Below, piece after piece: positions 31,856 through 39,476 of a stretch of DNA of 64,000 nt. The position numbers and the translations under genes are program-made. The first letter of the stretch is position 1. Each line of letters begins with the position of its first letter. This DNA is from Demequina globuliformis (GTDB lineage: Bacteria; Actinomycetota; Actinomycetes; Actinomycetales; Demequinaceae): positions 1 through 64,000 of the forward strand of contig NZ_BBRG01000004.1 of assembly GCF_000975155.1 (NCBI RefSeq), in the 5' to 3' direction. Under the pieces are notes generated by a model. It worked only from the letters and a program-made list of their open reading frames with translations, had not been told where the DNA came from and did no database searches.

Positions 31856-32806
31856 CTAGGCGCCGCGGTGTTCCTTGATGCGCTCGATCGCCTGCGGGAT
31901 CACGTCGAAGAGGTTGCCCACCACGCCAAAGTCGGAAATCTCGAAGATGGGGGCCTCGGGGTCCATGTTGATACACACGATGGTGCCGGAGGCTTGCATG
32001 CCGCCGCGGTGGTGAACGGCGCCGGAGATGCCACACGCGACATAGAGCGCGGGCGTCACGGTGGTGCCGGTCTGGCCGACCATGTGTTCGTGGCTAATCC
32101 AACCCTCGTCGGTGGCGTCGCGAGAGGCCCCCACTGCACCGCCGAGTAGTTCAGCGAAGTCGCTGACCAGCGAGTAATCGCCTGAAGTCCCACGGCCACC
32201 CGACACTACGACGGGAGCCTCCGCGAGTGGCACGCTGTCGCCCTGCTCGACGGGCTCGACGGACACGATCCGCTCCCGCGCTTCGGGCAACTCAGCGTCG
32301 ACGACAACCACCGTCGCCGCTGCGGGCGAGTCGGCCGGAGTGGCGTGCGTCGTGTTGGGGCGCACGCCCACGATCGCCTTGTCGGCGTTAATGCGGGTAC
32401 GCACGTCCCAGGTCGCGGCGAACACGGTCTGGAAGGTCTCGACCTTGCCGTCAACGAGCTCGGCGCCCGCGGCGTCCACGACCACACCCGCGCCGGTGGC
32501 GAGGGCCAGTCGCGTCGCGATTTCCTTGGTGACGAACGTGGAGATCATGACGACCACGTCGGCATCCCCGGACGCCGCACCGACTGCAGCGGCAGCACGC
32601 GACGCAACCCTGGCGTCGGCCGCGTCGACCACCCGGACCTCGGTGGCGCCGTACTCGCCCAACTGAGCCGCGGCGTCGGCGCTGGGAGCCTCGCCCAACC
32701 AGACGGCGACGGGGGTGCCGAGCGAACGGGCCAACGTGAGGGCCTCGAGCGCGGGCCGCGTGACCGCCCCGTGGCGGTGGTCAATGAGAACTGCGGCGAT
32801 GGTCAT
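31856..32806 (-). CDS. etfA: Electron transfer flavoprotein alpha subunit (FixB)
   Basis: A 316-residue subunit that binds FAD. The C-terminal FAD domain has the family signature YVACGISGAVHHRGGMQ, with INMDPEAPIFEISDFGVVGN after it. It starts with ATGA overlapping the etfB stop by 4 bp, so the two are coupled. EtfAB passes electrons from acyl-CoA and similar dehydrogenases to the quinone pool. The FAD-dehydrogenase at 14809 is not close enough to be called a partner. Confidence 0.96.
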   Translation of the reverse strand: MTIAAVLIDHRHGAVTRPALEALTLARSLGTPVAVWLGEAPSADAAAQLGEYGATEVRVVDAADARVASRAAAAVGAASGDADVVVMISTFVTKEIATRLALATGAGVVVDAAGAELVDGKVETFQTVFAATWDVRTRINADKAIVGVRPNTTHATPADSPAAATVVVVDAELPEARERIVSVEPVEQGDSVPLAEAPVVVSGGRGTSGDYSLVSDFAELLGGAVGASRDATDEGWISHEHMVGQTGTTVTPALYVACGISGAVHHRGGMQASGTIVCINMDPEAPIFEISDFGVVGNLFDVIPQAIERIKEHRGA

Positions 32807-33591
32807 GCCAGTCCCTTCTCGATGAGGAAGTTCGCGAGTTGCGTGCCGGCGTCGCCGGTGTCCGTGACCTTGATGCGGTCGGCGCGCGGAGGCCGCGGGG
32901 AGGCGTCAATGACGGTGGTGCGGGCGGCTCCCGCGCCTACCTGGGCGGGATCGAGTGCCAGGTCACTGAGGGTCCACACGGTCACCGGGGCCTTGCGGGC
33001 CGCCATGATGAGTTTGAAGTTGGGAAAGCGCGGCTTGTTCGCCTCGTCCGTCACGGAGACGACCGCCGGCAGTGGCGCGCTCACGGTCTCGTGCGAGTCC
33101 GGCAGGTGACGCTCGATGGTCACCTCGCCGCCGTCCACAGAGAGCGCCGATGCCAGGGTCAACTGCGACCAGTCAAGCTCGGCAGCAAGCGCGGTGGGCA
33201 GCATCGACGTCAGCCCGTCGAGGGCGGCCATGCCCGTCACGACCAGGTCCAGCGGCGCCTCGTCGTGCACCTTGCGCACTGCCGCGGCGATGACCTTGGC
33301 GGTGCCGAACACGTCAGAGCCCGCGATGGCCTCGTCGGACACGTGCAGGGCGTGGTGAACGCCCAATTGCAGGGCCTTGCGTACCGCGGCAACCGCGTCG
33401 GGCCCGCCCACGGTGAGGGCATAAACCTCGCCCTCGCCGGCCGCCTCAACGAGCTGGAGAGCAGCCTCGACGGCGTTCTCGTCCAACTCGTTCATGGTGC
33501 CGTCCTCCGCGGTTCGCGTGACGCGACCGTCAGTGAAGGAACGCTGGGACTGCAGGTCGGGAGTGTGCTTGACCGTGACCAGAATGCGCAT
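32803..33591 (-). CDS. etfB: Electron transfer flavoprotein beta subunit (FixA)
   Basis: A 262-residue beta subunit beginning MRILVTVKHTPDLQSQR. It has the AMP-binding segment of the family (ALTVGGPDAVAAVRKALQLG) and the conserved LVVTGMAALDGLTSMLPTAL region. ATG 33591 is chosen since the family starts with this K-x-V-P-like strand. First gene of the etfBA operon. Its promoter lies in the same gap as the divergent secreted-peptide cassette. Confidence 0.96.
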   Translation of the reverse strand: MRILVTVKHTPDLQSQRSFTDGRVTRTAEDGTMNELDENAVEAALQLVEAAGEGEVYALTVGGPDAVAAVRKALQLGVHHALHVSDEAIAGSDVFGTAKVIAAAVRKVHDEAPLDLVVTGMAALDGLTSMLPTALAAELDWSQLTLASALSVDGGEVTIERHLPDSHETVSAPLPAVVSVTDEANKPRFPNFKLIMAARKAPVTVWTLSDLALDPAQVGAGAARTTVIDASPRPPRADRIKVTDTGDAGTQLANFLIEKGLA

Positions 33592-33635: not shown

Positions 33636-33709
33636 TGCCCACATAAGTAATGGCTTGGCGCACTTACCAACCATCGGTACTGTCCAGTTTGCGGGCCTGC
33701 TGAGGCCCG
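33636..33709 (+). promoter_or_regulatory. Conserved regulatory block of cassette A
   Basis: The block has three elements: TGCCCACATAA (33636-33646), the inverted repeat TACC-N7-GGTA (33665-33679), and a hairpin cgggcct-gctg-aggcccg (33692-33709) 20 bp before the start codon. All three recur before cassette B: boxes 29 bp apart in both, and hairpin position the same within 1 bp. Regulator binding and an RNA-level role are inferred. Confidence 0.7.
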
Positions 33710-33729
33710 GCCACCAGCAAAGGGAAAAG

Positions 33730-34038
33730 ATGAAAAAGCTCACGTCAATGCTCGTCAAGGGGGGGGTTGTGGCAGTTGTCGCAGCCAGCCTGACCGCGCC
33801 CATCGCACCGACCGCCCCGGCAAGCGCCGGATGCGGCTCTAAGCTCAGCTTCAACAACTACGACCGTGTCAACCATTGGGCGATGTACTGCGACAAGGTC
33901 GGGGTGCGGCACCAATACGTCCCGGTTGGCGCGCCCTCTCACTGGCTTTACTGGACGCCGTGGTCAGAGTCGACCCGAATGGCCGAGTCCGGCCCGAAGG
34001 CAAAGTATGTCAAGTTCCAGAGCTGGTCCGAGGGATGA
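33730..34038 (+). CDS. Small secreted two-cysteine protein A
   Basis: A 102-residue precursor. A signal peptide (MKKLTSMLVKGG, a hydrophobic stretch, then PASA) is followed by a mature part of about 68 residues starting near GCGSKLSFNN. The mature part has two cysteines 19 residues apart, then VGVRHQYVPVG and an aromatic tail with several Trp and Tyr. It is homologous to the product at 34811: both share G-C-x18-C and V-G-x-R-x-x-Y-x-x-x-G. The stop overlaps the start of the next gene (ATGA). The lactococcin 972 pattern is absent. It could be a bacteriocin-like toxin or a signal; I recognise no known family. Confidence 0.75.
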   Translation: MKKLTSMLVKGGVVAVVAASLTAPIAPTAPASAGCGSKLSFNNYDRVNHWAMYCDKVGVRHQYVPVGAPSHWLYWTPWSESTRMAESGPKAKYVKFQSWSEG

Positions 34039-34640
34039 GCCGACGAAGTGCTCCCAGACGGGCCGCCCAAGGGATCGCAGCAGTCGCAATCGTGACTGCG
34101 GCACCAGGGTGCGCCGGCACGACTGACTCGTTAGACGCTGCGCCGACTCAGTTCGCCGCCACAATCGAGAGGGCCCAACAAGATGGCGCAAGTGAGGATC
34201 AGATTGCCCTCATGACGGACGGCGAGTTGACCTTTGAAGAGGTCAGCAGTGCAGTCGACCGGTCCTTGGAATGCATGCGGGAGCTCGGCTTTCACATCAT
34301 CGACGAGGGCATAGACGACTCAGCCGGCTACCCCAAGCGCATGTACACCTACTCAGGATCGCCAGCCGGCTTTGCGGATGGCGGCGGAGATGAGGGCCAA
34401 GCGTGCCTCGAAGAGCACAGCTTCTTCGTCGAGAGCGCGTGGTACGACGCACCGCAATCAGTGGCCGGACGTCACCAGAAGCTGGAGTCTGTCAGGCCCC
34501 AGGTGATCGCGTGCCTATCTGACATTGGCATCGACGTCCCGGACACGGCGACCTACGACGAGCTCCTCGACCTCAACCTCGATGGCTACGTCAACAGCGG
34601 CACCGACTGCGTCGTCGACGCTGGGATCCCCTCGTATTGA
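34035..34640 (+). CDS. Exported protein, putative lipoprotein, partner of secreted protein A
   Basis: A 201-residue protein with an N-terminal Arg-rich start, a hydrophobic segment and Cys26 in TAAPGC, a non-canonical lipobox (Ala at -3, Pro at -2). The mature part is acidic and has four cysteines (near LECMREL, GQACLEE, VIACLSD and GTDCVVD) that line up with the protein at 35131. Shared features are a GAS..Q.AL segment, GELTFE/GEVTYE, a C-L-S-x-x-G-x-D motif and a final SY. It overlaps the gene for protein A by 4 bp, so synthesis is coupled. A role as immunity or receptor protein is inference. Confidence 0.75.
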   Translation: MSRRSAPRRAAQGIAAVAIVTAAPGCAGTTDSLDAAPTQFAATIERAQQDGASEDQIALMTDGELTFEEVSSAVDRSLECMRELGFHIIDEGIDDSAGYPKRMYTYSGSPAGFADGGGDEGQACLEEHSFFVESAWYDAPQSVAGRHQKLESVRPQVIACLSDIGIDVPDTATYDELLDLNLDGYVNSGTDCVVDAGIPSY

Positions 34641-34717
34641 CCTACCGGCCACGCGCAACGCCACCCTCAACGCACCTTGGCGGCGGGCCGCGGCTGTGTT
34701 CCCTCGACCCGCACGTA

Positions 34718-34791
34718 TGCCCACATAAATGCGGGCTTTGCAGGCATACCAACGGACGGTATTTTACCTTGACGGCGCCATGGTGGCGCCG
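34718..34791 (+). promoter_or_regulatory. Conserved regulatory block of cassette B
   Basis: TGCCCACATAA (34718-34728), TACC-N7-GGTA (34747-34761) and the hairpin cggcgcca-tgg-tggcgccg (34773-34791) lie 19 bp before the start codon. The hairpin differs in sequence from that of cassette A but pairs fully, which suggests the structure itself is conserved. Confidence 0.7.
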
Positions 34792-34810
34792 CACCAAAGG
34801 AGGGCACGAC

Positions 34811-35128
34811 ATGAGACGGTTCAGCACTACACTCGCCGCGAGCGCGGCGGTCGCACTATTGGCACTGTCCGCTGGGCCAGCAAGTGGAGCGGAGACGTCT
34901 TCGTACCGCTCATATTCCGGCTCACAGTATGTCGACGGCTGCCGAGTGACGAGCACCATCAACAGTGGTGTCTCCGCTCAGAGCCACGACAACGGCTGCG
35001 CGGGCTCAGTCGGGCAGCGGATCTGGTACATCGACGAGGGCTCACATCGCTACACGCCGACCGTCTGGCACAAGCACCAAGTGACGCACTTTGTTCTCGG
35101 TGCGTGGGCGTACCGGGTGTCTCACTAG
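34811..35128 (+). CDS. Small secreted two-cysteine protein B
   Basis: A 105-residue precursor with a clear signal peptide (MRRFSTTLAASAAVALLALS, then AGPASG). The mature part has GCRVTSTINS with the second cysteine 19 residues on (NGC), then VGQRIWYIDEG and an aromatic, His-rich end. It is a diverged paralogue of the product at 33730 and carries a strong AAAGGAGGG ribosome site. The stop is 2 bp before the next start. Signal-peptide, cysteine spacing and gene order argue for a processed extracellular protein with a disulfide. Function unknown. Confidence 0.75.
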   Translation: MRRFSTTLAASAAVALLALSAGPASGAETSSYRSYSGSQYVDGCRVTSTINSGVSAQSHDNGCAGSVGQRIWYIDEGSHRYTPTVWHKHQVTHFVLGAWAYRVSH

Positions 35129-35130
35129 TG

Positions 35131-35751
35131 ATGACCTCCCGCGCCGGTGGTGTCGCGTCACTGAGCGTTGCTTGCGCGGTCACGACCATTGCTCTAGTCG
35201 GCTGCACGACCTCACCAGAAGCGACTCCCCACGCCGAGTCCAGCGACGAGGGATTTGCCGCCATCGTGGAATCCGCAGTGAGGGACGCGGTCGATTCAGG
35301 GGCATCCCCGGCGCAACTCGCGTTGCTTGAAGATGCACGCGAAGCAGGAGAGGTCACTTACGAGGCCGCCGCGCGGGCGCGCGACGCGACTGTCGCTTGC
35401 CTCACCGAACTCGGACTTGATGCACGCGCCGAGGACCACGAAAACGAATGGGGCTACGTGCTCCCGTTCTGGTCCGTGGCAGCTGACAGCTCAGCACCTG
35501 TCGACACGTGCGAAAACCAAGAGTCAATGTGGATAAGTCAGGTCTATCAGACCCAGCCGGCGGCACTATCTGCCCGCGATGTGTGGATCCAGGAGCGTTC
35601 CCCACAGCTGCGCGCCTGTCTGAGCGAGCAAGGCGTCGACCTCGACCCTGACACCACAGTCGCAGAACTGCTCTCCGCAACCTCTGATCTGTGGAACGAG
35701 ACCGAGGGGAGCATTGACTGTGCCGGTGAGATCGGCCTGCATTCGTACTAG
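35131..35751 (+). CDS. Putative lipoprotein, partner of secreted protein B
   Basis: A 206-residue lipoprotein with a canonical lipobox LVGC (Cys25). It aligns along its length with the product at 34035: FAAIVESA, GASPAQLALL, GEVTYE, CLTELG, DTCENQ, LRACLSEQGVDLDPDTTVAELL, DCAGEIG and final SY. Four cysteines are conserved between the two. It is the second gene of cassette B. A short match to the cassette regulatory block (ttaccgaacgatcg at 35771) and seven T at 35832-35838 lie downstream. Confidence 0.75.
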   Translation: MTSRAGGVASLSVACAVTTIALVGCTTSPEATPHAESSDEGFAAIVESAVRDAVDSGASPAQLALLEDAREAGEVTYEAAARARDATVACLTELGLDARAEDHENEWGYVLPFWSVAADSSAPVDTCENQESMWISQVYQTQPAALSARDVWIQERSPQLRACLSEQGVDLDPDTTVAELLSATSDLWNETEGSIDCAGEIGLHSY

Positions 35752-35954
35752 CAGCCCTCGCGCGCAGAACTTACCGAACGATCGCACTCGTGACAGGTCA
35801 CCCGCTCCGGCCAAGTGGCCCCGCTGGGAAGTTTTTTTGACGCGACCACAGGGACGCCCCGTGAGCCGCGCAGATGATCGAGCACCGGCTCGCAACGGGC
35901 CATGACTGTTCGGACGAGGTTGCTCTTGGCAGCTACGAGGAGATGGGATTCACA

Positions 35955-36983
35955 ATGACGCGTGTTCGTTCGGCCGGCGTGACTGTGGCGCTGGTGGCTG
36001 CGATTGGGGCTCCGCTGTTGGCGGCCGGAGTGTGGGTGTTTGCGGCATCGGAGGAGTCACCGCTCCAGGCGGCGACACCAGCGGCGCCGCTGATGGGCAC
36101 AGTGGAGACTGCGCAGCGCTCGGGTGAAACCAATGTGAGTGTCAAGGTTCAGTACGCCACGGCGCTGTCCCCCACCACCCAGGCGAGTGGGACCGTCACG
36201 GCCATGCACGCATCGGCCGGAAGCGACGTCACCCACGGCGACCTCCTTATGGTCGTCGATGCCGCCGAAGTCTTCGCTTACGCCGCAGACGCGCCACTGT
36301 TCAGGGACGTATCCCGCGGAAGTGACGGCGCGGACGTCGCCATCGCCCAGCAACTCCTCATTGACCTGGGCTACCTCGATGGCGAGCCCGATGGCGATGC
36401 CGGGTACGTCACCGAGCAAGCGATCAAGGAGTTCAACGAGGAACACGGCTATGGCAAGAACAACACAGTCTTGTCACGCGCTGCAGTGGTGTGGGTTGGA
36501 CCGTCCGCCGCCACTGTTGACGAGATGAGCGTCGCCGTGGGCGACAGTGTCTCCCCCGGCACCGCGGTGTTTAGCACGACTGCATCGATGAGCGCTATCG
36601 AGGTGACCGAGCCACCGACCATGAGCGCAGACGGCCCGCTGGTGTTGGACGTGGGTGGCGCCGTGGTCGACTACGAGGCCGGTTCCGGATACGTCACGGA
36701 ACCTGAGTCGGTCGCGCTCATCGCGGATGCGCTCGGGGATCTGGGCGAAGGCGTCGGTCTCACGCGCCTGGCGACACCGACCGAGATCGCATCCGTTCCG
36801 GCACCGGCGGTCGTCACTGACGACGCCGGCCGCACCTGCATCTTCCCTGACCTCACGGGAGACGCGGTGCCGATCACCCCGCTAGGCGGGACCCTCGGAA
36901 CCGTGGACGTGGACCTCGCGCTCGCGGGTGAGCCGCTGTTGCTGAACCCACGGGAGGTCCGGGAGAACATCGCATGCGACTAG
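35955..36983 (+). CDS. ABC exporter adaptor with peptidoglycan-binding domain
   Basis: A 342-residue membrane-anchored adaptor. One transmembrane segment lies at residues 8-31. A barrel-sandwich-like part (VKVQYATALSPTTQASGTV, then DVTHGDLLMVVD) is followed by a peptidoglycan-binding_1 domain at about 118-168 (SDGADVAIAQQLLIDLGYLD). A second half of beta structure follows. This is the build of actinobacterial periplasmic adaptors that serve MacB-like ABC systems. ATG 35955 is chosen; ATG 35943 is an alternative four codons upstream with GAGGAG too close. It overlaps the ATPase gene by 10 bp. Its place behind the two peptide cassettes suggests it handles their products. Confidence 0.85.
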   Translation: MTRVRSAGVTVALVAAIGAPLLAAGVWVFAASEESPLQAATPAAPLMGTVETAQRSGETNVSVKVQYATALSPTTQASGTVTAMHASAGSDVTHGDLLMVVDAAEVFAYAADAPLFRDVSRGSDGADVAIAQQLLIDLGYLDGEPDGDAGYVTEQAIKEFNEEHGYGKNNTVLSRAAVVWVGPSAATVDEMSVAVGDSVSPGTAVFSTTASMSAIEVTEPPTMSADGPLVLDVGGAVVDYEAGSGYVTEPESVALIADALGDLGEGVGLTRLATPTEIASVPAPAVVTDDAGRTCIFPDLTGDAVPITPLGGTLGTVDVDLALAGEPLLLNPREVRENIACD

Positions 36984-37627
36984 CGGCGCGCGACGTGTCC
37001 TTCACGTACCCGCGCGGCGACCACCAGGTGCTGTCCGGCGTGACCTTCGACATCCCCGACGGCGCATCCGCCGCGATCATCGGCCCATCCGGCTCAGGTA
37101 AGACCACCCTGCTGTCCCTGATGGGCCACCTGCTGCCCTTGAAGTCCGGCGCCATCCAGGCAGTCGACACAGATGGTGCTGACCACTCGCTCGCGGACAC
37201 CGCGTCGTGGGTGCTGCAAACCGTGTCACTCCTACCCGACCGCACCGCGGCAGACAACGTCATGGTTGGCGCCTACTCCGACGGCGCGAGCCGGGCCGAT
37301 GCTCGGGCCAGGGCACGCGACTACCTCGCCCAGGTGGGGCTCGTCGGCCGCGAAGACGAGCCGGCACGCATCCTGTCAGGCGGAGAAGCTCAGCGGGTGG
37401 CCATCGCGCGCGCCTTGGCGTCCCACCGACCCATCATCTTGGCCGACGAACCCACCGGGCAGCTCGACGCGACAACGTCGGCGACCGTGCTTGAAGCAAT
37501 GATCGGTGCACACGGCGAGCGCACCGTGGTCATCGTCACCCACGACCCGGCGGTGGCGCAGCGGTGCGACGTGGTCCTGGAACTGCGCGACGGAAGCATC
37601 ATGGACCACGCGGGAGCACCTGCATGA
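36974..37627 (+). CDS. ABC exporter ATP-binding protein (MacB/LolD type)
   Basis: A 217-residue ATPase with all motifs: Walker A GPSGSGKTT, signature LSGGEAQR, Walker B IILADEPTGQLD and the H-loop His in VIVTHDP. Its size is typical of LolD/FtsE/MacB-like subunits that power FtsX-fold permeases. It starts inside the adaptor gene (10-bp overlap) and overlaps the permease gene by 4 bp (ATGA), so the three are made together. Confidence 0.94.
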   Translation: MRLAARDVSFTYPRGDHQVLSGVTFDIPDGASAAIIGPSGSGKTTLLSLMGHLLPLKSGAIQAVDTDGADHSLADTASWVLQTVSLLPDRTAADNVMVGAYSDGASRADARARARDYLAQVGLVGREDEPARILSGGEAQRVAIARALASHRPIILADEPTGQLDATTSATVLEAMIGAHGERTVVIVTHDPAVAQRCDVVLELRDGSIMDHAGAPA

Positions 37628-38754
37628 GCGAAGCGTCCCACCGTCGCCGCACCTGGCCGCTGTCCCTCGCAGCTCGCGAGGGCCTCGCCACGGCACGCAC
37701 CGGACGGTGGACCTCTGCCATCGTCATCGTGGCTACCGCGTGGCTGATCGCCGCCCCCGCTATTGCCGACGCCCTGGGCGTGACCCGGCTCATGGAAGCC
37801 GAGCAAGACTGGATCGACGCCGGCGGTCACGTCTACGTCGTCACGGGCGCCACCGTGGACGGAGACCAGTTCCCCATCCCCACGTCCACATGCGAATCAT
37901 TGGCGGGCTACGACGGGGTCGAGGCCTCCTTCGCTTTGGAACGCTCGGGCGCCACCGGCGCACTCACGTCGGTCCCCGGAGGACGGGCGAGCGTCTACTC
38001 CGTCACCTCCGGGGCCCTGCCGTTCCTCGGAATCGAGGGGGACCCCCGCGGCGTCGCGATCCTGTCGAGCGGCTTCAGCGAACGCACCGGCGTCCTCGGC
38101 GGCGAAACCATTGAGGTGGTCCGCCAAGCCAGCGACTCCGAGCCCGCCGCACGCACCGGCCTGGTCGCTTCGCGCGTCGCGGACACGGCGCCCATGGGAG
38201 ACGAATATGACGGCGCCTTGCTCGTGCCGTCACTGCTCGGCGCCACCGCGGACGCGTGCTACGTCGCGACCGACGCCGCACGCCACGACGCGGTCGCCGA
38301 GATTCTTCCCGGGGCCCTCGCGCACGAGGGCCGCGCCGCGGTGGTAGCGGACCGTCTGTACTCCAACGAGTTCACCGTCGACTACACCACCGCATACGAA
38401 GACCGCCCACTGAGGTGGCTGTGGATCGCGTCCGCACTCGCCTTAGGACTGATGTGGGCACTGGTCCAATGGTTCCGCCGCTCCCATACAGCCATTTACG
38501 CCACCTTCGGAGTCCATGCCCCCGCACGCCTCACCATGCAGGTGAGTGAATGGGCCCTGCTCGTTGCCGCCGGAGCCGCGGGCGGTTGGGCGATCGGCAT
38601 CACGGGGGCCCTGGCGTTCGGAGCCCGCACCGCTCCCACCCTCACCATCGTCAGCACCCACACCGCGCTCACCCTCATCGGCGCCACCCTCATCGTCATT
38701 GCAGTCGCACTCACACCCACCGGCACATTGCTCAACGCACTCAAAGACCGCTAG
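37624..38754 (+). CDS. ABC exporter permease, FtsX/MacB-like
   Basis: A 376-residue permease. One membrane segment lies near residues 30-50, followed by a large extracytoplasmic domain of about 210 residues with one or two cysteines and three more membrane segments near the end (WIASALALGLMWALV, WALLVAAGAAGGWAIG and LIGATLIVIAVAL). This is the topology of MacB/FtsX permeases, which push substrates from the outer face of the membrane by mechanotransmission rather than importing them. With the adaptor and ATPase it forms a complete exporter at the end of the peptide cassettes. Confidence 0.88.
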   Translation: MSEASHRRRTWPLSLAAREGLATARTGRWTSAIVIVATAWLIAAPAIADALGVTRLMEAEQDWIDAGGHVYVVTGATVDGDQFPIPTSTCESLAGYDGVEASFALERSGATGALTSVPGGRASVYSVTSGALPFLGIEGDPRGVAILSSGFSERTGVLGGETIEVVRQASDSEPAARTGLVASRVADTAPMGDEYDGALLVPSLLGATADACYVATDAARHDAVAEILPGALAHEGRAAVVADRLYSNEFTVDYTTAYEDRPLRWLWIASALALGLMWALVQWFRRSHTAIYATFGVHAPARLTMQVSEWALLVAAGAAGGWAIGITGALAFGARTAPTLTIVSTHTALTLIGATLIVIAVALTPTGTLLNALKDR

Positions 38755-38834: not shown

Positions 38835-39476
38835 ATGACCAGCCTTTTGCTCGACGACCAGGTAGACGCGTACATCACCGCCGGCCTGCACCGGCTCGCG
38901 GCACTCTCGGAGGGAGACTTCCGCGAAGTCTTCGATCCACTGAGAGGCGCGGCCGCGGAGCTACCTCAGGATGCGTTCCCCGCGGACGGGGTGCTGCCGT
39001 ACGTCGCCGTCGTCGCGGATGCCCTCATCGATCCCGCTGCACGCGTGCCCGGCCTGCGCTTGCCCGGCTCCGCCAACGAGGGGATTCTGGACCGTAATCA
39101 CGGCGAGGAGGGCCTGGCGCCGTACCGCGACCGTCCGGAACTCGAGGTGCCCCAGGCACCCGCCTACCTGCTGGTCAACGTGCAGCGTGGCGACGAGTTC
39201 AGGGACGTCGCGCCCCTGGATGCCTGCGCGCAGATCGCGGACCGCGGTCGCTCGCCGTTAACGATCGCGGAGGGACTGTCCATCACTGCCGCGCACCCTG
39301 GATTCCTCAAGAAGAACCACTGCTTCATGCTGGCGGGGTCATCGCGCGGCGACAAGCGCGTCCCCGCGATCTGGATCTCCCAGAAGGCACCCAAGTTGGG
39401 ATGGTGCTTTGACAAGGTGCCGCACTCGTGGCTGGGCATTGCATCAGCAGCTGCGCGCCGCCCAGTGAGCGCGTAG
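38835..39476 (+). CDS. DUF5701-like protein
   Basis: A 213-residue soluble protein starting MTSLLLDDQVDAYITAGLH. The C-terminal half has a distinctive conserved-looking motif series: LTIAEGLSITAAHPGFLKK, then CFMLAGSSRGDKRVPAIWIS and APKLGWCFDKVPHSWLG. I associate this with the actinobacterial DUF5701 family from memory, without a search. No catalytic motif is recognisable. It follows the exporter genes by 80 bp but has its own probable start region, so co-transcription is uncertain. Confidence 0.65.
   Translation: MTSLLLDDQVDAYITAGLHRLAALSEGDFREVFDPLRGAAAELPQDAFPADGVLPYVAVVADALIDPAARVPGLRLPGSANEGILDRNHGEEGLAPYRDRPELEVPQAPAYLLVNVQRGDEFRDVAPLDACAQIADRGRSPLTIAEGLSITAAHPGFLKKNHCFMLAGSSRGDKRVPAIWISQKAPKLGWCFDKVPHSWLGIASAAARRPVSA

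Follow-up and report, generated by a model that had tools for sequence, protein, structure and literature searches.

Secreted two-cysteine peptides, four-cysteine lipoproteins and a MacB-like pump in Demequina: a candidate bacteriocin-like system of actinobacteria

The window we have analyzed is the whole 64,000 nucleotide stretch of Demequina globuliformis contig NZ_BBRG01000004.1 (positions 1 to 64,000), from a genome of 2.62 Mb in 8 contigs. It contains a module of seven genes in one direction (Table 1): two cassettes, each with a gene for a small secreted peptide (P1, P2) followed by a gene for a lipoprotein (L1, L2), and then the genes for an adaptor, an ATP-binding cassette (ABC) ATPase and a permease. 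On one side the module is bounded by EtfAB-type genes on the minus strand (31856-33591), on the other by a DUF5701 gene (38835-39476). The nearest named relatives which carry the locus are D. flava, D. sediminicola and Demequina sp. B12. A previous sequence-only reading of this DNA had described two adjacent, co-directional units of an exported two-cysteine protein and a four-cysteine lipoprotein, followed by a peptidoglycan-binding adaptor, an ATPase and a MacB/FtsX-type permease in overlapping frames. Gene calls, signals and cysteine positions agree with this description. Coupling is tight: P1 and L1 overlap by 4 bp (ATGA), P2 and L2 are separated by 2 bp, and the overlaps are 10 bp between adaptor and ATPase and 4 bp between ATPase and permease.

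Table 1. Genes and upstream elements of the Demequina module (window positions).
Feature	Position	Strand	Details
Cassette 1 promoter-region element	33638..33683	+	CCCACATAAGT, TACCAACCATCGGTA at 33665-33679
P1, secreted two-cysteine peptide	33730..34038	+	Open reading frame, 102 aa, mature about 69 aa, Shine-Dalgarno-like AAAGGGAAA, signal peptide end ASA
L1, four-cysteine lipoprotein, proposed immunity protein for P1	34035..34640	+	
Cassette 2 promoter-region element	34720..34765	+	CCCACATAAATGCGGGC, TACCAACGGACGGTA at 34747-34761
P2, secreted two-cysteine peptide	34811..35128	+	105 aa, mature about 77 aa, predicted beta-rich
L2, four-cysteine lipoprotein, proposed immunity protein for P2	35131..35751	+	Confident alpha-helical predicted fold with beta-hairpin
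AD, membrane-anchored HlyD/MacA-like adaptor with peptidoglycan-binding domain	35943..36983	+	PF01471, one N-terminal transmembrane segment
ATP, ABC ATPase, MacB/LolD/FtsE type	36974..37627	+	PF00005 5.7e-28
PERM, single FtsX/MacB-type permease, four transmembrane segments	37624..38754	+	Transmembrane layout, extracellular domain with two invariant cysteines

Both peptides have a Sec-type signal with an AxA-type site, followed by exactly two cysteines (C35/C54 in P1, C44/C63 in P2). The two units had been considered homologous. This holds for the lipoproteins, which align with z=25 against shuffles. The peptides give no support to it: the P1/P2 alignment scores only as high as shuffled sequences, and the two belong to different subfamilies with the same layout. 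The P1 subfamily has relatives in D. sediminicola, G001 and G156, the P2 subfamily in B12, in a second locus of the genome of the window, and in G003, D. sediminicola and G013. A third subfamily, without the cysteine pair, is found in D. flava, G009 and Actinotalea. Signal peptide, size and overall layout are common to all of them, and their common descent is likely, if unproven. A secreted variant with four cysteines and 133-135 aa is found in L115 (9733-10134) and L123 (a 135-aa open reading frame 5' of the lipoprotein), paired with a shorter, divergent lipoprotein. It is a possible further toxin subfamily.

P1, L1, P2 and L2 gave no matches in Pfam, NCBIfam, PHROGs, PADLOC or PDB sequence searches, with either proteins or profiles. 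The AlphaFold2 model of P2 is beta-rich, with a mean pLDDT (the model's confidence score) of 67, and Foldseek searches with this weak model returned only low-confidence beta-rich matches, none of them significant. One of these was 'Formosin D' (9hkj, E 0.16), a name under which the literature gave only papers on other subjects. P1 and P2 do not qualify as bacteriocins of the ribosomally synthesized and post-translationally modified type, since they bear AxA-type Sec signals and their neighbours are the EtfAB genes, the DUF5701 gene and the exporter: neither modification enzymes nor a double-glycine leader or C39 protease exporter were found beside them.

The lipoproteins have a lipobox cysteine, as LanI-type immunity proteins do, in a weak context in L1 (AAPGC) and a good one in L2 (LVGC), and four cysteines. 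C25 is almost invariant in the family. The core of the AlphaFold2 model of L2 has pLDDT >90 and consists of helices and a single beta-hairpin behind a flexible linker. Foldseek detected no PDB structure matching this model with E <0.1, and the lipoprotein appears to represent no known fold. In particular, no likeness to NisI, SpaI or MlbQ was found in sequence (L1 and L2 against PDB) or fold (Foldseek on the L2 model).

The adaptor has a PG_binding_1 domain (PF01471, 3.5e-8), weak HlyD/biotinyl-lipoyl matches and one N-terminal transmembrane segment. For the ATPase, the second-best NCBIfam model is TIGR03608, L_ocin_972_ABC (2.2e-42, below the cut-off of the model). In the permease, a large extracellular domain with two invariant cysteines (90, 212) separates a single N-terminal transmembrane segment from three C-terminal ones: this is the layout of FtsX/MacB. 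No Pfam or NCBIfam permease model was reached by the window permease and no PDB sequence matched it; a distant relative gives a weak match to FtsX PF02687 (8.6e-4, below cut-off). The three components of the YknXYZ/MacAB tripartite systems are thus found: an HlyD/MacA-like adaptor (by weak matches), a strong ABC ATPase and a permease with four transmembrane segments.

A common element is found about 50 bp 5' of the P1 and P2 start codons, with the form CCCACATAA-(about 18 bp)-TACCAAC-N3-CGGTA. We read from the sequence a TTGGCG-like -35 (33655-33660) and a -10-like TACTGT (33678-33683) in cassette 1, and a TTGCAG-like -35 and a -10-like TATTTT in cassette 2. The element seems to be placed between a TTGNNN -35 and a TANNNT -10; a promoter consensus scan of these regions reported no promoter. 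There are exactly two copies of TACCAACNNNCGGTA in the genome, one 5' of P1 and the other 5' of P2. D. sediminicola and D. flava have one copy each, preceding the P1-type cassette in the former and the decayed cassette in the latter. Among the loci compared, CCCNCATAAATNNGGG is found only at the cassette 2 site. Since the element has been kept while the peptides cannot be aligned, the two cassettes are probably co-regulated.

The distribution of the module was studied with a lipoprotein profile built from ten Demequina lipoproteins and with its permease. The lipoprotein family is found in 10 of the 44 Demequina genomes. The permease is present in 9 of them, all with the lipoprotein, and only one of the 35 genomes without permease contains a lipoprotein (Fisher P=1.4e-8). 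Among the genomes sampled from the order, 41 of 396 have permease homologues. We have read 53 exporter loci from Demequina, Actinotalea and other actinomycetes. All 53 include the adaptor, and 51 have a lipoprotein homologue at a distance of 6 kb or less. The proportion is 35 of 37 when the 16 loci whose lipoproteins trained the profile are left out, and 36 of 53 with a profile trained only on Demequina. Elsewhere in the 144 kb of exporter loci there are only two lipoprotein matches. In two genomes the lipoprotein matches were initially weak (G276, G232); on reading, both proved to carry the module, complete or in large part. A recognisable small secreted peptide is found at no fewer than 28 of the 53 loci, mostly immediately 5' of the lipoprotein, a count that is a lower bound resting on a home-made signal-peptide rule and manual reading of the loci. 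Hosts outside Demequina include Actinotalea ferrariae and one Demequinaceae metagenome-assembled genome. Some Streptomyces plasmid adaptor relatives were set aside, they are part of a sigma-factor-associated operon.

The same layout recurs in dozens of genomes, so the arrangement is not due to chance. Repeated co-localisation with variable copy number of peptides and lipoproteins is what the sequence-only reading had anticipated for a synteny survey. The outcomes which it had considered fatal were not seen: our searches found no peptides without lipoprotein, and none of the proteins was placed in a known unrelated enzyme or wall-protein family.

Cassettes are also found at second loci without exporter, in the genome of the window (C8, L014) and in B12 (L012), which suggests that one pump probably serves several cassettes. 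Alongside the cassette at L014 (9481-10923) and its orthologues in L012 and L053 there is a protein of about 480 aa with multiple membrane segments and EEPLK-type motifs, which resembles a PrsW-type intramembrane protease. A small exported protein is found there too. This second locus is conserved in three Demequina species, with no exporter near. As for the exporter modules, several of those in other actinomycetes (L104, L112, L114, L117, L119 and L176) have two-component genes, for a sensor kinase, a response regulator or both, as immediate neighbours, suggesting envelope-stress or peptide-responsive control.

The genes of the module have diverged to very different degrees, as seen in a syntenic comparison of the window with D. 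sediminicola and D. flava. The exporter is highly conserved: identity is 94-96% for the adaptor, 90-93% for the ATPase and 87-89% for the permease. Flanking proteins are mostly 59-93% identical. Peptides and lipoproteins are only 29-58% identical, or the peptide type is replaced outright. For example, P1 and its partner L1 are 51% and 58% identical to the proteins at the same locus of D. sediminicola; the value for L2 is 34%. Across 26 pairs, the similarity between peptides rises with that between their lipoproteins (Mantel r=0.43, P=1e-4); once orthologues are thinned, the correlation is weaker but still there (21 pairs, r=0.21, P=0.006). A conserved exporter beside hypervariable pairs looks like antagonism-like evolution, with signs of an arms race in the sequences.

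The number of cassettes per genome goes from none to several, and lipoproteins outnumber peptides. G008 and G009 yield 12-13 lipoprotein matches, mostly without a recognised peptide. In G009, whose complete genome measures 2.5 Mb, some twelve lipoprotein copies are dispersed (loci L054-L062), accompanied by just one exporter and a few peptides; at least one of these copies (L060) has a divergent peptide 5' of it which gene calling had overlooked. Three peptide-less lipoproteins of D. sediminicola and NBRC 110055 are 60%, 71% and 65% identical to lipoproteins paired with peptides in D. flava or B12. In D. flava, the region 5' of the adaptor contains what is left of a peptide, at 53% identity to P2 (6.8e-12), next to a truncated lipoprotein: a decayed cassette 2. 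Transposase-like genes flank or interrupt cassettes in L015 (5813-8255 and 13675-14810), L054 and L063, consistent with mobility and turnover.

Among the closest known systems is that of lactococcin 972. Its type cluster consists of a secreted peptide gene followed by a MacB-type permease and an ATPase, all of which are found in the window. In lactococcin 972 and streptococcin B (lclAB, scbABC), a small protein secreted by a Sec-type signal is likewise encoded beside a MacB-type ABC transporter, the window ATPase has the lactococcin-972 ABC model TIGR03608 as its second-best NCBIfam match, and in both systems some loci have the toxin gene and others lack it. The toxin gene of the pneumococcal scb locus is absent in 27.5% of genomes (PMC11796350). 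A study of Brevibacterium reports weak lactococcin-972 homologues accompanied by an ATPase and a pair of membrane proteins (PMC5719810). The classical loci which we have read differ from the window in having a permease of about 440-700 aa, larger than ours, with an ATPase and no adaptor or lipoprotein match. P1 and P2 were rejected as members of the family. Neither they nor 18 relatives and further exporter-locus peptides scanned match PF09683 (Lactococcin_972), and the hhalign probability against a profile of true peptides is about 0. As a set, the genes of the module correspond to no named system.

An exception is locus L121 of G604, where a true Lactococcin_972 peptide (Pfam 5.6e-8, above cut-off) occupies the peptide slot. 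It is followed by a four-cysteine lipoprotein, an adaptor, an ATPase and a permease, all of the window families. The permease was found by a profile which does not include it (6.6e-14), and so was the lipoprotein. G604 also carries a two-cysteine cassette with exporter at a separate locus, L105. The other lactococcin-972 loci we have read have the classical large permease and ATPase, or no exporter in view.

Partial parallels are found in other systems. YknWXYZ of Bacillus, which protects against the disulfide-bonded secreted peptide SDP (PMC4887032), is also a Gram-positive system in which adaptor, ATPase and MacB-like permease are individual proteins. Unlike YknWXYZ, the window has no Yip1-family YknW, its adaptor bears a peptidoglycan-binding domain, its permease has no PDB sequence match, and the cluster encodes toxin candidates and a lipoprotein. 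In lantibiotic producers, a surface lipoprotein and an ABC exporter (NisI/LanFEG) constitute a double self-immunity (PMC4828448). LanI proteins (NisI, SpaI, MlbQ) also vary strongly among lantibiotics. However, our peptides have no modification enzymes alongside and the pump resembles MacB, not LanFEG. MacAB shares the combination of an adaptor and a MacB-type ABC transporter, but in the window ATPase and permease are separate proteins, and a Gram-positive has no outer-membrane channel.

We favour, as the probable explanation, that the cassettes encode bacteriocin-like peptides together with lipoproteins conferring immunity, served by an extrusion pump of the MacB/YknXYZ type. The gene anatomy, the conservation of the five-gene module, the co-diversification of peptides and lipoproteins, the peptide-less lipoproteins and the common upstream element are observed; from them we infer toxicity, cognate protection, extrusion and a cellular target. 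The peptide would leave the cell via Sec, fold outside as a disulfide-stabilised protein and target the cell envelope in related bacteria; the analogy of lactococcin 972 suggests cell-wall synthesis as a possible point of attack. The lipoprotein, on the outer face of the producer membrane, would bind, block or shield against the cognate peptide. The adaptor, ATPase and permease would be a mechanical pump, anchored to the wall through the peptidoglycan-binding domain of the adaptor, which would strip the peptide from the membrane or push it out through the wall. This pump would serve every cassette in the genome, those at other loci included. Cassettes would duplicate, swap peptides and lose them, lipoproteins being retained because immunity would still be useful against neighbours. 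The logic would parallel that of NisI with LanFEG and of YknWXYZ against SDP, with different proteins. A dedicated exporter secreting the peptides, as first proposed, is unsupported: since they carry Sec signals, extrusion or immunity is likelier than secretion by the ABC complex. The antagonism proposed at the same time is well supported by syntenic co-occurrence, hypervariable pairs, peptide-less lipoproteins, decayed cassettes and lactococcin 972 in the same architecture.

Several facts weigh against this interpretation. The lipoproteins have no solved structural or sequence relative, so their immunity role rests on genomic logic. The covariation of peptides and lipoproteins is partly orthology. 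The cassette peptide profile does not align with that of lactococcin 972 in hhalign, and among the exporter loci we have read, L121 alone has a true lactococcin-972 peptide. Two-component systems flank several loci, which also fits signal-driven regulation. On a signalling reading, the peptide would be an extracellular signal received at the cell surface by the lipoprotein, and the MacB-like complex would feed a regulator, as sensor or as exporter. Flanking two-component genes (L104/L074, L112, L114, L117, L119) and the promoter element common to both cassettes would agree with such cell-cell signalling, and ligand-receptor pairs may co-diversify too. We consider it unlikely: no dedicated regulator gene adjoins the locus in the window, the peptides are folded disulfide proteins of about 70-90 aa and not short signals, and many peptide-less lipoproteins, decaying cassettes and a true bacteriocin in the peptide slot at one locus are hard to reconcile with it.

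The numerous lipoproteins without peptide, together with the lack of a recognisable peptide at roughly every second exporter locus, might indicate a resistance module, in which pump and lipoproteins guard against foreign envelope-active peptides and the small protein is a decoy or sensor. Nevertheless, peptides are tightly coupled 5' of lipoproteins, co-diversify with them and keep their signal peptide and cysteine layout, and toxin-less loci are also known in lactococcin-972 systems, as in the pneumococcal case above, which makes this quite unlikely. Envelope maintenance by an FtsEX- or LolCDE-like machine, moving or activating lipoproteins or wall enzymes with the small protein as substrate or regulator of wall turnover, would account for the union in one operon of a peptidoglycan-binding adaptor, an FtsX/MacB-type permease and a lipoprotein. 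Such a role is distinctly improbable in view of the patchy presence of the module (9 of 44 Demequina genomes) and the extreme divergence of peptides and lipoproteins next to a conserved pump; pseudogene cassettes and adjoining transposases are also atypical for housekeeping genes.

A wider proposal, which we advance tentatively and with rather less conviction than the bacteriocin-like reading itself, is that of a widespread actinobacterial antagonism platform. The lipoprotein family and the peptidoglycan-anchored MacB-like pump would be an immunity and extrusion chassis for exchangeable toxins, namely several two-cysteine or cysteine-free beta-rich peptide families and lactococcin 972, and the peptide-less lipoproteins an immunity reservoir. 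If so, there would be a large pool of unrecognised actinobacterial bacteriocin-like proteins and immunity proteins which no profile library names. The lipoprotein and the adaptor-ATPase-permease trio would be a marker for mining them, and lactococcin-972 bacteriocins would be one toxin type among several using a common lipoprotein-and-pump module. The kind of system, a bacteriocin-like toxin with an immunity lipoprotein and a pump, would be a known one; the protein families which make it up are named by no library searched. The gene set is not described in the literature searched, subscription papers being outside its coverage. Cassettes which have diverged at one locus would make the specificity of cognate pairs directly testable.

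The DUF5701 gene which follows the permease (PF18959, 3.4e-49) adjoins the module in three Demequina species; it is probably merely a conserved flank.

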